A stretch of DNA of 56,286 bases from Burkholderiaceae bacterium (GTDB lineage: Bacteria > Pseudomonadota > Gammaproteobacteria > Burkholderiales > Burkholderiaceae_E): assembly GCA_024643785.1 (NCBI GenBank), contig JAHEMI010000004.1:1-56286 (forward strand), written 5' to 3'. The notes under the pieces are model-generated. The model was given only the letters and a program-made list of their open reading frames with translations, had not been told where the DNA came from and ran no database searches. Below, one piece after another: positions 30,882-37,445 of the stretch (within the stretch, counting starts at the first letter, position 1; every line of letters begins with the position of its first letter). The translations under genes and the position numbers were made by a program.

Positions 30882-32170
30882 TGAGCGGCAACAATCCCCC
30901 AGCAAATCGGCCAACCCTCGCCGAACTGACCAGAGGCGAGTCGGACTACGATTCCGCGGCGCTGCCAGTTGCCCGGGCGCAGGCCATCATCGCCGCATTC
31001 GTGGCACCCTGTTGCGGAGGTGAGGAAGTTGCGATCCGCGCTGCCCTGGCGCGGGTGCTGGCCGGCGACGTGATCTCGCCGATCGACGTGCCGGCCAGCG
31101 ACAATTCAGCGATGGACGGCTACGCCGTGCGCGGTGCCGACCTCGCTGCCAGCGGGCGCACCAGGCTGCGGGTCGTGGCCAGGGCACTCGCCGGCCAAGC
31201 CGCCACCGTCGCGCTCGGCGCCGGCGAAGCGGTCCGCATAATGACCGGCGCGCTGATCCCGGCGGGCGCCGACACAGTGGTGGTTCAGGAAGTCACCGAG
31301 CCCGACGGCGACTTCGTCTGGGTGCCGGCGGGTCAGCGCACCGGGCAGAACCTGCGCCGGCGCGGCGAAGACCTGTGCGCGGCGGGCGTTGCCCTGCCGG
31401 CGGGGAAGATGCTGACCCCGGCCGACATCGGGCTGCTGGCGTCACTGGGCATTGCCACGGTGACGGTTCGCCAGCGCCTGCGAGTCGCCTTCTTCTCGAC
31501 CGGGAACGAGGTTCGCTCGCTCGGCGAGCCGCTCGCCGCGGGCCAGCTCTACGACAGCAATCGCTACACCATCGAGGCCATGCTGCGCCGCATCGGCGCC
31601 GAGCCGATCGACATGGGCGTGGTGCCCGACGATCGCCAGGCGCTGGAAGACGCGATGCTGGAAGCGAGCCGCCGCGCCGATGCGATTATCTCGTCTGGCG
31701 GCGTGTCGGTAGGGGAAGCAGACTATACCCGGCCAGTGCTGAAGGGCCTGGGCGAAGTCGACTTCTGGAAACTTGCGATCCGCCCGGGCCGTCCGATGGC
31801 CTTCGGCCGGATCGGCGGTGCCTGCTACTTTGGCCTGCCGGGCAACCCGGTGGCGGTGATGATCAGTTTCTACTTCTTTGTGCGCGACGCCCTATTGCAA
31901 ATGATGGGCGCGACGCCCCAGGAACTGCCGCTGGTGCGGGCGCGCACGCTCACGGCGCTGCGCAAGATTCCCGGACGCACCGAGTATCAGCGCGGGATTC
32001 TGAGGCGTGGTGCCGACGGTGCGATGGAGGTCGAGCGCAGCGCCAGCCAGGGGGCCGGAGTGCTGCGCTCGATGTCCGAGGCCAACTGCGTCATAGTGCT
32101 AGGCGAAGGCCAGGCCAACGTCGCCGCCGGCGAACCAGTCGACTGCATCGCCTTTCACGGACTCGCCTGA
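30881..32170 (+). CDS. moeA: Molybdopterin molybdenumtransferase MoeA
   Basis: SPIDVPASDNSAMDGYAVRGADL; MTGALIPAGADTVV; SSGGVSVGEADY; GRPMAFGRIGGACYFGLPGNPVAVM. Confidence 0.96.
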   Translation: MSGNNPPANRPTLAELTRGESDYDSAALPVARAQAIIAAFVAPCCGGEEVAIRAALARVLAGDVISPIDVPASDNSAMDGYAVRGADLAASGRTRLRVVARALAGQAATVALGAGEAVRIMTGALIPAGADTVVVQEVTEPDGDFVWVPAGQRTGQNLRRRGEDLCAAGVALPAGKMLTPADIGLLASLGIATVTVRQRLRVAFFSTGNEVRSLGEPLAAGQLYDSNRYTIEAMLRRIGAEPIDMGVVPDDRQALEDAMLEASRRADAIISSGGVSVGEADYTRPVLKGLGEVDFWKLAIRPGRPMAFGRIGGACYFGLPGNPVAVMISFYFFVRDALLQMMGATPQELPLVRARTLTALRKIPGRTEYQRGILRRGADGAMEVERSASQGAGVLRSMSEANCVIVLGEGQANVAAGEPVDCIAFHGLA

Positions 32171-32185
32171 GCCCGCTGCAGCGCC

Positions 32186-32509
32186 TCACCCGAGTCGGCG
32201 CAGCAGGGTCCCGACGTCCTTGAAGGTGCGCTCAATGCGCTCATCGTCGAGCGTGGTCTCGCCAATTTCCTGCTCCAGAAAGCAGACAATCATCTTGGCA
32301 TAGACGCTATCGAGAGCGCGGCGGGCGGCAGTCATCTGTTGCGCCACCTCGAGGCAGTTGTCGCCCTCTTCGATCATCCGGATCACGCCGCGCAGCTGAC
32401 CTTCGACCCGGCGCAGGCGCTTGACGACCTCGCTTCGCGCCTTGCTATTGCTCAGACTCGCCATCGCCTCGCAGCTCCGTTGCAGTGATTGAAGAGGGTT
32501 GGTTCCCAT
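32186..32509 (-). CDS. CsoR/RcnR/FrmR-family (DUF156) transcriptional repressor, non-canonical sensor residues
   Basis: KRLRRVEGQLRGVIRMIEEGDNCLEVAQQMTAARRALDSVYAKMIVCFLEQEI. Confidence 0.9.
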   Translation of the reverse strand: MGTNPLQSLQRSCEAMASLSNSKARSEVVKRLRRVEGQLRGVIRMIEEGDNCLEVAQQMTAARRALDSVYAKMIVCFLEQEIGETTLDDERIERTFKDVGTLLRRLG

Positions 32510-32512
32510 TGG

Positions 32513-32740
32513 TTATTTTGCCCCAGCCAGCTCGACTGCGGTTTTTGCCCCAAGTTTACGCAGGATATTTTCCATCAGGCACCAGCGCGTAATGCCGCTC
32601 TGGAACAGGTTGGCGCCCACGAACACCGTGAACCACAGGAAATTGGAACTGTAGAACAAGGGGCTCCCCTCGACCCCGAGGGCGAGGGAGAGCAGCACGA
32701 AGGCGCCGGCGATAATCCGGATGAGACGTTCAGTAGACAT
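32513..32740 (-). CDS. DUF2892 (YgaP-type transmembrane domain) protein
   Basis: MSTERLIRIIAGAFVLLSLALG...WFTVFVGANLFQSGITRWCLMENILRKLG. Confidence 0.85.
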   Translation of the reverse strand: MSTERLIRIIAGAFVLLSLALGVEGSPLFYSSNFLWFTVFVGANLFQSGITRWCLMENILRKLGAKTAVELAGAK

Positions 32741-32750
32741 GGCAAAGTCC

Positions 32751-35700
32751 TCAGGTTGTGGAAACGGAAGTAGGCGAAGAGGGCACGGCGCACTCGTGCG
32801 CACCGCGGTAGGTTATGAAGTAGAGAACCGGTATTACTACCAGGGTGAGCAGCGTCGAGATCATGATCCCGAAGATCAGCGATACGGCCAGACCGTTGAA
32901 GATCGGGTCGTCGAGGATGAAGAATGCGCCGAGCATGGCCGCCAGCGCGGTCAGCAGGATCGGCTGGGCACGCACCTGCGCCGAGCGCACGACCGCCATC
33001 GCAAAGGGCACGCCACAGCGGGTCTCGAGCTCGATGAAGTCGACCAGCAGGATCGAGTTGCGCACGATGATCCCCGCCAGCGCGATCATCCCGATCATCG
33101 AGGTCGCGGTGAACTGGGCTCCCAGCAGCGCGTGCCCCGGCATCACGCCGATGATGGTGAGCGGGATCGGCGCCATGATGATCAGCGGCGTAAGGTACGA
33201 GCGGAACTGCGCCACAACCAGCAGGTAGATCAGCGCCAGCCCGACCGCGTAGGCGATGCCCATGTCACGGAAGGTCTCGTAGGTGATCTGCCATTCGCCA
33301 TCCCACTTGATGGCGTACTGGGCATAGGGGTCAGAGGGCTGGGCGATGAAATATTCACCGAGCGCGCCGGTTCCCGGCAGACTCAGTTCGCTGAGCCGCT
33401 TGCGGAAATCCAGCATGCCGTAGAGCGGACTGTCGATCTTGTTGCCATCGACCAGGCCCATGTCGCCAACCACGTAGGTCACCGGCAGCAGGTTCTTGTG
33501 ATAGACCGGGGTGTCGCGCTGGTCGGTTTCGATGCGCACCAGTTCGCCGATCCTGATCGGCTTGCCCCCGGCGCCCATGACCGGGACGTCAAGCACCGCG
33601 TCAAGCTTGCCCTTGACCGACTCGGGTAGCGACAACCTCACCGCGACTGCGAATTTCGAGCGTTCGTCGCGCAGGTAGGTCACCTCCATGCCTGCCAGCG
33701 CGGCCCGCGCCGCCTGGGCGATCGCCGCGTCGCTCACGCCCAGCGCCTGGGCCTTGGGCTTGTCAACGACCAGCCGCACCCTTGGTGCCGGAGCTTCCAG
33801 TGTGGTGTCCAGCGCCACCATCCCGGGCAACTCGGCCATCGCTGCTTCCAGGCGCCTGGCCAGCGCCGCCCGCCCGGCCGCATCCGGGCCGTAGACCTCG
33901 GCGACCAGCGGCGAGAGCACCGGCGGTCCCGGCGGGACTTCGACGACCTTCAGGCGCGCGCCGTGGCGCAAAGCGATCTCACGCAGCGCCGGCAACAGGC
34001 GCTGGGCGATGGCGTGGCTCTGCTCGGAGCGGGCGTGCTTGTCCACCAGGTTGACCTGCAGGTCGCCCTGCTCCGGATTGCGCCGGAAGTCGTACTGGCG
34101 CACCAGCCCGTTGAAATTGATCGGTGCCGCAGTTCCCGCGTAACCCTGGACATTGGTCACCTCGGGGACCGCCGCGAGGGCCTGCGACAGTTCCAGCAAG
34201 GTGGCGTTGGTGCCTTCGACCGGTGTCCCCGGGGGCATGTCGACGATGACCTGGAACTCCGACTTGTTGTCGAACGGCAGCATCTTGAGGATCACTGCTT
34301 CCACGATCACCAGCGAGACCGCGCCGGCGAGCAGCACCACGACTCCGCCGAGCAGCGCCCGGCGGCGCCAGGCGTAGCCCCGGCCCGAGCCGGCGGCTGC
34401 CCCGTTGCCGCCTTCAGCTTCCTGGTGGTCGATGAACGGCTTGAGCAATCCACCGAAGGTCCCGTAGAGCATCCGTGCCACCGGGTTGGCGGCATGCCCG
34501 CCGGCCCCATGGACCGGCGCCTTCATCAGCCGCAGCGCCAGCCAGGGCGTAACCATGAAGGCGATCGCCAGCGAGAGCAGCATCCCCATCGACGAGTTGA
34601 TCGGGATCGGGCTCATGTAGGGGCCCATGAGCCCGCTGACGAAGGCCATCGGCAACAGCGCTGCGATCACGGTCAGCGTCGCCAGAATCGTCGGGCCGCC
34701 GACCTCGTCGACCGCCTGGGGGATGATCTCGGCGAGCGGCCGCCCGGGTTCGAGCTCGCGATGGCGGTGGATGTTCTCCACCACCACGATCGCGTCGTCG
34801 ACCAGGATGCCGATCGAGAATATCAACGCGAACAGCGATACGCGATTGAGCGTGAAGCCCCAGGCCCACGAGGCGAACAGTGTCGCCGTCAGGGTGAGGA
34901 TCACCGCCCCGCCCACGATCACCGCTTCGCGCCGGCCCAGCGCAATTCCCACCAGGACAATTACCGACAGGGTGGCGAAGGCCAGCTTCTGGATCAGCTT
35001 TGCCGCCTTGTCGCTGGCGGTCACGCCATAATTGCGGCTGACCGTGGCCTCGACGTCGCCCGGAATGATCGAGCCGTGCAATTCGTCGAGCCGCCTCTCG
35101 AGGGCGGTGGTGACGTCGATGGCATTCTCGCCCGGTTTCTTGGTGATCGCGATGGTGACCGCCGGGAAGATCTGCCCGGCCGCCGGCGGCGCCTCCGCAG
35201 ACCCGGTCCCGGCGCCTTCCGCGGCAGGTGCCTGGGCCGCGCCATGGCCCGCGCCACCCGCGGCTCCGGGCATGTGCCAGACGTAGCGCTGGGCTGGAAT
35301 GGCACCGTATTCGATGCGGGCCACGTCGCGCAGATAGACCGGGCGGCCGGCATTGACGCCGACGACCAGCTCGCCGACGTCAGCGACCGAACGCAGGAAC
35401 GAACCGGTTTCGACCCGGATCGCGGCGCCATTGTGAATCAGGTCCCCCGATGGCAGGGACAGGTTTGCCGCCTGCAACGCCCCGATCAGCGGCTCCACCG
35501 ACAATCCGGCAGCACGCAACCGTCCCGCGTCGAATTCGACGTTCACTGCGCGACCCGGACCTCCGATGGTCCACACCTCGCGGGTACCGGGAACGCGCTT
35601 GAGTTCATGCTCGATCGAGGCCGATACCCGCTCGAGCGCGTCGGCCGAACGGGCGTCGCGCGCCCACAGCGTCACCGCCAGCACCGGCACGTCGTCGATG

Positions 35701-36194
35701 CCCTTGGGCTTGACGATCGGCTCTCCGACCCCAAGGCCCGCCGGCAGCCAGTCGCGGTTGGCGTTGAGTGTGTCGTGCAGGCGCACCAGCGCCTCGGTGC
35801 GCGATACCCCGACCTTGTACTGCAGCGTTACCAGCGCCATTCCGGGCTGGGACACCGAATAGATGTGCTCGATCCCGGCAATCTGCGACAGCACCTGCTC
35901 GGCGGGCGCCGCGACCAGTTTCTCGACGCTGGCCACCGAGGCCCCGGGGAACGGGATCAGCACATTGGCCATGGTCACGTTGATCTGCGGCTCTTCCTCG
36001 CGCGGTGTCACCAGGGCGGCGAACAGCCCCATCAGCAACAACACCAGCGCGAGCAGCGGAGTCAGCGCGTGATTCTGGAAGCGCGCAGCGATCCAGCCCG
36101 AAATGCCCAGGCGCTGCGCGGAAACCACGTCCCGAGCAGCCGTCGCCGGTTCTGCTGCCCCGGGCGCGTTCTGTCCTGTTGAGCCCTCGCTCAT
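32751..36194 (-). CDS. RND efflux transporter permease (HAE-like)
   Basis: About 1147 aa; TM4 motif FSIGILVDDAIVVVENIHRHRE; GPTILATLTVIAALLPMAFV; large periplasmic loops. Confidence 0.93.
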   Translation of the reverse strand: MSEGSTGQNAPGAAEPATAARDVVSAQRLGISGWIAARFQNHALTPLLALVLLLMGLFAALVTPREEEPQINVTMANVLIPFPGASVASVEKLVAAPAEQVLSQIAGIEHIYSVSQPGMALVTLQYKVGVSRTEALVRLHDTLNANRDWLPAGLGVGEPIVKPKGIDDVPVLAVTLWARDARSADALERVSASIEHELKRVPGTREVWTIGGPGRAVNVEFDAGRLRAAGLSVEPLIGALQAANLSLPSGDLIHNGAAIRVETGSFLRSVADVGELVVGVNAGRPVYLRDVARIEYGAIPAQRYVWHMPGAAGGAGHGAAQAPAAEGAGTGSAEAPPAAGQIFPAVTIAITKKPGENAIDVTTALERRLDELHGSIIPGDVEATVSRNYGVTASDKAAKLIQKLAFATLSVIVLVGIALGRREAVIVGGAVILTLTATLFASWAWGFTLNRVSLFALIFSIGILVDDAIVVVENIHRHRELEPGRPLAEIIPQAVDEVGGPTILATLTVIAALLPMAFVSGLMGPYMSPIPINSSMGMLLSLAIAFMVTPWLALRLMKAPVHGAGGHAANPVARMLYGTFGGLLKPFIDHQEAEGGNGAAAGSGRGYAWRRRALLGGVVVLLAGAVSLVIVEAVILKMLPFDNKSEFQVIVDMPPGTPVEGTNATLLELSQALAAVPEVTNVQGYAGTAAPINFNGLVRQYDFRRNPEQGDLQVNLVDKHARSEQSHAIAQRLLPALREIALRHGARLKVVEVPPGPPVLSPLVAEVYGPDAAGRAALARRLEAAMAELPGMVALDTTLEAPAPRVRLVVDKPKAQALGVSDAAIAQAARAALAGMEVTYLRDERSKFAVAVRLSLPESVKGKLDAVLDVPVMGAGGKPIRIGELVRIETDQRDTPVYHKNLLPVTYVVGDMGLVDGNKIDSPLYGMLDFRKRLSELSLPGTGALGEYFIAQPSDPYAQYAIKWDGEWQITYETFRDMGIAYAVGLALIYLLVVAQFRSYLTPLIIMAPIPLTIIGVMPGHALLGAQFTATSMIGMIALAGIIVRNSILLVDFIELETRCGVPFAMAVVRSAQVRAQPILLTALAAMLGAFFILDDPIFNGLAVSLIFGIMISTLLTLVVIPVLYFITYRGAHECAVPSSPTSVSTT

Positions 36195-36227
36195 TGGCCT
36201 GCCCTCACCTTCTCGCGGGTCCATCTG

Positions 36228-37346
36228 CTATTTCGCCGCTTGACCGTTGGCCGGACGCGCGTGGCTGAGGCCGGCACGCACCGGGTCGATGGCAATCTTC
36301 TCGCCTTCGCGCAGTCCGGCGAGGACTTCGACGCGCTCGCCGAGGTCGCGGCCGAGCCGCACCGCCCGCAGCACGAAGCGCTCCGGCGCCGCGACGTAGA
36401 CCGCCTGCAGCTCGCCGCGCACCAGCAAGGCTGCCCGCGGGATGACCAGCATTGCCTCGGCGACCCCGCTGGTCTGGACCTTGATGCGCTGGCCGGGGAG
36501 GAATTGGCGCGACTCGGCGGCGGGCAGGTCGACCCGCAGTTCCACCGTCGCGCTCGACGGATCGGCCGAAGGCACGACCGTCGCCGCGGCGCCTTCGAGG
36601 CGGCGCGCAACCGTGCCGACGGCGGCCGGGAGCAGCACCGCCACCTGTGGCTGCGGGCCCAGCGCGAGCGCGACGCTCGCCGGGACGTAGACGACGGCGC
36701 GCAGGCGCTCGCTGCCGTGAAGTTCAACCAAGGGCCGGCCCGGGGCTGCCAGGTCCCCCTGCTCGACCATCACCGCGGTCACCACCCCGTCATAGGGAGC
36801 GACCAGGGTCGAGTAGCTGCTGGCCAGCTGGCGCAGGGTCGAACCGGCCCCCGCCTGGGTCCGCTGGGCCTCGGCCTGGCGCAATTGCGCATCGGCCGCG
36901 TCCATCGCTGCCTGGCTGATGAAACCTTGCTGCAACAGGCGCTTGCTGCGCGCGTTGGCGGCCCGCGCCTCGTCGAGCGCGGCCTGCACCTGTGCCTCCT
37001 GGGCGTTCGCCTGGTTGACCCCGGCGGCCGCTTCGCGATTGTCGAGCGATACCAGTACCTGCCCGGCGCGGACGCGATCACCGGCGCGAATCTTGACCGC
37101 AAGCACCCTGGCCTGGGTCTGCGCGGCCAGGGTCGACTGACGAACCGGCTGGAGCGTACCGTCCCAATCGAGGCCTTGCCCGATCCTGAGCAGTTGCGCC
37201 ACCGTGACCGGTACTTCCGGTCCCTGGGCGGCCTGGGCCACCGCGTTGCGGCTCGCCCCCCACAGGAGCGCGCCCGCCAGGAGCACGATTGTGGAGCGCC
37301 AAGCTAGCATGGCCAGAGGGGGCATTGATTTTGTTTTATCGTTCAT
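36228..37346 (-). CDS. RND efflux periplasmic adaptor (HlyD/MFP family)
   Basis: Lipoyl-like barrel halves QARVLAVKIRAGDRVRAGQVLVSLD and APYDGVVTAVMVEQGDLAAPGRPLVEL; N-terminal signal/anchor. Confidence 0.92.
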   Translation of the reverse strand: MNDKTKSMPPLAMLAWRSTIVLLAGALLWGASRNAVAQAAQGPEVPVTVAQLLRIGQGLDWDGTLQPVRQSTLAAQTQARVLAVKIRAGDRVRAGQVLVSLDNREAAAGVNQANAQEAQVQAALDEARAANARSKRLLQQGFISQAAMDAADAQLRQAEAQRTQAGAGSTLRQLASSYSTLVAPYDGVVTAVMVEQGDLAAPGRPLVELHGSERLRAVVYVPASVALALGPQPQVAVLLPAAVGTVARRLEGAAATVVPSADPSSATVELRVDLPAAESRQFLPGQRIKVQTSGVAEAMLVIPRAALLVRGELQAVYVAAPERFVLRAVRLGRDLGERVEVLAGLREGEKIAIDPVRAGLSHARPANGQAAK

Positions 37347-37380: not shown

Positions 37381-37409
37381 ATTGTATACCCCTGGGGGTA
37401 TCCGGTCAA
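37381..37409 (-). promoter_or_regulatory. Sigma70 promoter TTGACC-N17-TACAAT of the hlyD-RND operon with CsoR-type operator in its spacer
   Basis: -35 complement at 37404-37409, -10 complement at 37381-37386, palindrome ATACCCC-TG-GGGGTAT at 37386-37401; hlyD ATG 35 nt downstream. Confidence 0.85.
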
Positions 37410-37417
37410 GCCCCTCG

Positions 37418-37445
37418 TTGTCCCAAAGTCGGGCGCCGGTATACT
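37418..37445 (+). promoter_or_regulatory. Candidate promoter of moxR: TTGTCC-N16-TATACT
   Basis: Good hexamers, 16-bp spacer, about 60 nt upstream of moxR ATG. Confidence 0.6.

Follow-up and report, generated by a model that had tools for sequence, protein, structure and literature searches.

A conserved palindrome in the promoter of an RND-pump operon as the candidate operator of its terminal CsoR-family repressor

The stretch of DNA analysed here, 56,286 nucleotides of a Burkholderiaceae bacterium and referred to in full as the window, carries a minus-strand operon that encodes an RND pump and ends in a gene for a CsoR-family regulator, with a palindrome embedded in the promoter of its first gene. 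This arrangement raises two questions: is the palindrome the site through which the distal regulator controls its own operon, and if so, to what does the regulator respond? The features concerned are the following.

37404-37409, minus strand: -35 hexamer TTGACC (sequence; position kept in three genus relatives)
37386-37401, no strand: predicted operator palindrome ATACCCC-TG-GGGGTAT, of the class RTACCC-N4-GGGTAT, TAC-N8-GTA (sequence, conservation)
37381-37386, minus strand: -10 hexamer TACAAT, one base of which also belongs to the palindrome
36228-37346, minus strand: HlyD/RND_mfp periplasmic adaptor, first gene of the operon (PF16576/PF13437, TIGR01730 above cut-off)
32751-36224, minus strand: RND transporter (ACR_tran; PF00873, 449 bits)
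32513-32740, minus strand: YgaP-like transmembrane protein (DUF2892; PF11127, 56 bits)
32186-32509, minus strand: CsoR-family (DUF156) repressor with Cys52 and Cys76 (PF02583, 71 bits, cut-off 22.8)

The palindrome and its promoter

Upstream of hlyD the minus strand reads TTGACC GGATACCCCCAGGGGTA TACAAT. As described in the initial annotation, the two hexamers are separated by exactly 17 bp and the spacer holds a perfect 7+2+7 palindrome that reaches one base into the -10; the interval it had given, 37381-37409, is correct as the span of the promoter, the palindrome proper being narrower. The central dinucleotide is TG on the plus strand and CA on the minus strand (ATACCCC-CA-GGGGTAT). With 10 of 12 positions matched, this promoter is the top sigma-70-like site of the region, where shuffled sequences average 0.1 sites, and the -35 has the counterparts TTGATC, TTGATC and TTGCGT in three genus relatives; as a -10, at 17 bp, relatives have TATAAT/TATACT. 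The four genes follow one another with gaps of 3, 10 and 3 bp, and no promoter ahead of the distal genes was found in 32100-32900. The claim that a CsoR-family gene closes this co-directional run (32509-32186) also held, and it is the sole PF02583 gene of the genome.

The palindrome stands upstream of two divergent genes. On the plus strand a promoter-like sequence, TTGTCC-16-TATACT (window 37418-37445), precedes a gene for a MoxR-like AAA ATPase and adjoins the putative operator. The ATPase gene, which is not adjacent in distant relatives, might thus come under the influence of the repressor as well.

Scanning the 2.66-Mb genome for the exact pattern ATACCCCNNGGGGTAT, as had been proposed, returned this single copy, with no match for the reversed control pattern, and among 4,000 dinucleotide shuffles of the 156-bp intergenic region none reached 14/14 and one reached 13/14. 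There is no support for a wide regulon in this genome, where the strict palindrome occurs once and its relaxed form adds one copy. That copy, ATACCCGCATGGGTAT (G000:C162:31051-31066; L172 3052-3067), lies about 100 bp upstream of a gene for an ABC-transporter ATPase, which by eye we take to be MlaF-like, within a short stretch between genes. Three of the four genus members retain this copy, and it is missing from G002 and from 26 further relatives; it is a possible second target of the regulator. Separately, the relative genome G013 (L156-L169), whose CsoR homologue is 44% identical, contains 14 exact ATACCCNNNNGGGTAT sites and none of the reversed control pattern. These at first resembled a regulon, but most apparently fall inside reading frames and not at promoters; ATACCCNNNNGGGTAT is an over-represented palindrome in that genome.

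The site across related operons

About 100 homologues of the regulator were collected from related genomes and from a scan of 85,488 species genomes. Those with titled records belong to Burkholderiales or are named merely as beta-/Proteobacteria/Pseudomonadota, and for most of the homologues the gene closes an HlyD-RND-DUF2892 operon. From these we obtained 65 distinct, de-duplicated operons with enough upstream sequence, phylogenetic kinship among them being ignored in all counts. Absence of the palindrome upstream of orthologous operons had been named beforehand as an outcome that would refute the proposed circuit; instead, a match of at least 11/14 within 400 bp upstream of hlyD was present in 53/65 regulator-carrying operons, as against 1.3% of equally long windows placed at random in the same loci. 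Seven of the 65 had just 7-8/14 near hlyD. Among the low scorers a good site lies farther upstream in L130 and L122, the rest have weak sites and L069 has none. Five contigs on which no RND operon adjoins the regulator gene also yielded no good site. The genes that neighbour the operon upstream vary between lineages, so the site is not merely carried along by a conserved flank.

Homologous RND operons without the regulator provided a natural control. Nearly all of the 20 that were read have the HlyD-RND-DUF2892 order, some with an added SQR gene (L180 lacks DUF2892), and the site occurs in 0/20 of them, the best scores of 8-9/14 being at background level (with versus without regulator, Fisher p ~1.6e-11, relatedness ignored). 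The site thus tracks the regulator and not the pump. These HlyD-RND-DUF2892(-SQR) operons (L173-L192) must be controlled otherwise.

When TAC and GTA ends were counted at spacings from N2 to N15, with no assumption of C/G tracts, TAC-N8-GTA occurred 100 times upstream in 58/65 operons, versus 1.4 occurrences expected; N8 was the only strongly enriched spacing, and N9 was seen once. An alignment of 54 operons, built on an N8 template (the spacing count being template-free), gave the consensus RTACCC-N4-GGGTAT. In 50 of these 54 the site and the best sigma-70 promoter overlap (random placement: 37%), and in 35 another copy of the site lies 16-25 bp away; the window has a single copy.

The regulator and its likely inducer

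The domain, the all-helical fold and the DNA-binding residues place the regulator in the CsoR/RcnR (DUF156, PF02583) family. R31, L32, R34 and Q58, which form the RLxR motif and the helix-2 Gln needed for DNA binding by Streptomyces lividans CsoR (PMC3902906), are conserved in at least 100 of 101 homologues, and Foldseek placed FrmR, CsoR, InrS and CstR at the top of its matches (probability 1.00; E-values of 0.0025 and above, none below 0.001). The palindrome in turn has the two short C/G tracts inside TAC/GTA inverted repeats that define a type 2 operator. Cys52 and Cys76, 24 residues apart, are present in 98/101 homologues. In the subfamily alignment, position +25 from the first Cys is Phe or Tyr and +29 is mainly Glu, so the copper-ligand pattern Cys-His-Cys (His +25, Cys +29) is missing, as are the His that FrmR carries at +25 after its sensor Cys and the 29-residue separation of the CstR pair (C31/C60); nor does the operator have the TAC-N9-GTA spacing of copper-sensing CsoR. 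With RLxR and fold kept and the +25/+29 ligands replaced, the protein is a CsoR-family member that is neither a copper CsoR nor a standard CstR, and its cysteine spacing marks it as a distinct variant. The label of CsoR-type operator in the initial annotation is therefore right for the operator class of the family and is not to be taken as copper sensing: the cysteines, the N8 spacing and the gene context all indicate a thiol or sulfur response.

Taken together, the conservation of the site, its absence from regulator-less operons and the retention of RLxR and Gln support, by sequence comparison, the proposal that the distal regulator represses its own operon here. We consider it probable that the palindrome serves the operon-terminal CsoR-family repressor as its operator, that the circuit is autoregulated and that its inducer is most likely of a sulfur type. 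We infer the following sequence of events. The reduced repressor tetramer would occupy TAC-N8-GTA in the spacer of the promoter and block RNA polymerase, keeping hlyD-RND-DUF2892-csoR expression low by negative autoregulation. The inducer, most likely a thiol-reactive sulfur species (persulfide or polysulfide derived from sulfide), would join two subunits through a Cys52-Cys76 link and so lift the repressor off the DNA, whereupon the RND pump and the DUF2892 protein would be made, together in relatives with SQR, OsmC and SLAC1/TehA-type proteins. The structure model, a monomer built from 10 sequences with a pLDDT of 79.7, does not extend to a meeting of Cys52 and Cys76 across subunits, and at a 24-residue spacing the CstR route of cross-linking need not operate.

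The sulfur assignment draws on operator spacing and gene context. Our comparison set comprised 23 other CsoR-family plasmid loci, 11 with sulfur-type neighbours, 11 with copper-type neighbours and one unclassified; the labels are our own, made from annotation, and two of the 11 sulfur labels are uncertain. N8 sites were found at 11/11 sulfur-linked loci and 0/11 copper-linked loci, and N9 at 8/11 copper-linked loci, all 11 of which keep C-H-C. The idea arose from the first seven loci, and in the sixteen later ones N8 was present in 7/7 sulfur-linked versus 0/8 copper-linked cases. As to context, SQR, OsmC and SLAC1 genes are missing from the window operon and present in many related operons: an SQR gene (E=1e-174 to solved SQRs) stands between RND and DUF2892 in 15 of them, OsmC and SLAC1/TehA-type genes are frequent, and L102 and L116 each have an additional operator copy directly ahead of an SQR gene that itself follows csoR. 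The N8 class and these neighbours make a persulfide-type inducer our best guess, one that we favour by a little. In the window's genome and those of three genus relatives, a search that included no positive control gave no hit to SQR, and sulfur chemistry in them is thus deduced from relatives. In another phylum, actinobacterial plasmids (L229, L232, L234, L236, L238 and L239) combine a CsoR-family gene with MMPL/RND, mostly DUF2892, and N8 sites, and also have DUF302/TauE/MBL or DsbA genes, several of them TauE/MBL; the RND/DUF2892/sulfur association thus recurs there.

The missing SQR match also makes a serious rival of a different inducer acting on the same autoregulated operator, namely another thiol-reactive agent (formaldehyde, a quinone, a hydroperoxide or another oxidant); the RND pump would then clear an organic toxicant from the cell. 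A two-cysteine sensor does not reveal its ligand, the lowest E-value among the fold matches is that of FrmR, and the OsmC/Ohr-type genes of related operons would suit peroxide stress as well. We nevertheless rate this reading as the less likely one, since SQR, SLAC1/TehA and DUF2892 recur in the operons, N8 spacing is common to loci linked to rhodanese, TauE and MBL, and Phe or Tyr takes the place of the FrmR His.

Much less probable is a sensor of copper or nickel/cobalt that controls a metal-efflux RND pump, as the family name and the adaptor's scores with CzcB/CusB-type models, which are below cut-off, might suggest. The best-matching RND models are of the multidrug type, copper genes were not seen in the operons among the selected gene types searched, and a copper regulator specifically was rejected on the ligand replacements and N8 spacing. 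The transporter motif 'GILVDDAIVVVEN' looks HAE-like and not metal-type. Sites of MerR-type activators also occupy promoter spacers, those of MerR promoters being 19-20 bp long, but the spacer here has a normal 17 bp and the site accompanies the csoR gene and is missing without it. The C/G-tract sequence with TAC/GTA ends is moreover a known CsoR-family type 2 operator (PMC3902906), and assignment of the palindrome to another regulator of this kind is highly improbable. Finally, although 7+2+7 palindromes are common in the G+C-rich window (12 in all), a chance palindrome or a transcription terminator is ruled out for practical purposes by fixed-spacing conservation across many operons, by the shuffles, by the position upstream of two divergent genes and by a scan of the region that found no terminator-like site or T-run.

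Implications and comparison with known systems

A single palindrome has thus led to a testable circuit that is present in many Burkholderiales. Beyond the operator itself, we tentatively suggest that this is a large, apparently undescribed Burkholderiales branch of the CsoR family, which may sense reactive sulfur through cysteines in a new register, 24 residues apart, and control an RND pump, possibly exporting a sulfur compound, together with a DUF2892 protein, and that N8 and N9 may separate sulfur from copper members of the family. No description of the CsoR-RND-DUF2892 combination was found in the open-access literature; the N8/N9 difference may already be known. If it holds, it offers a simple DNA rule, TAC-N8-GTA for sulfur-linked and TAC-N9-GTA for copper-linked regulators, in a family whose members are mostly labelled 'metal-sensitive' in databases. 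The circuit would also connect sulfide or thiol stress with an RND pump and DUF2892, and the noncanonical cysteine spacing would be a good case of ligand change in the CsoR fold.

For the operon, one of the closest known systems is Dsui_3440-3443 of Azospira suillum, an operon of MFP, SQR, RND and a small unknown gene that was highly expressed during H2S oxidation (PMC5358917). The likeness, drawn by gene order, is to homologous operons of our set (matched in L187, L189 and L191), the regulator-less members of which have no site.

For the regulator, the formaldehyde sensor FrmR is the best structural match by E-value, and in most members a Glu five residues past the second Cys falls near FrmR Glu64 in the alignment. 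Unlike in FrmR, the second sensor position is a Cys, one residue ahead of the FrmR His, and a formaldehyde dehydrogenase gene was not seen in the window operon.

S. lividans CsoR shares the fold, RLxR with Gln, and a C/G-tract pseudopalindrome with TAC/GTA ends. Its type 2 copper operator, ATATACCCCTNAGGGGTATAT, is TAC-N9-GTA (PMC3902906), whereas the window operator is 1 bp shorter, its regulator lacks the C-H-C ligands and the target is RND-DUF2892.

The persulfide sensors CstR of S. aureus and YrkD of B. licheniformis (PMC5480029, PMC9918477) differ in having cysteines 29 and not 24 residues apart, and the window operon, with its RND pump and DUF2892 target, has neither rhodanese nor persulfide dioxygenase. 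Like them, however, our regulator has two conserved cysteines and relatives of its operon are sulfur-linked and carry SQR, and the YrkD-like locus L223 has N8 sites.
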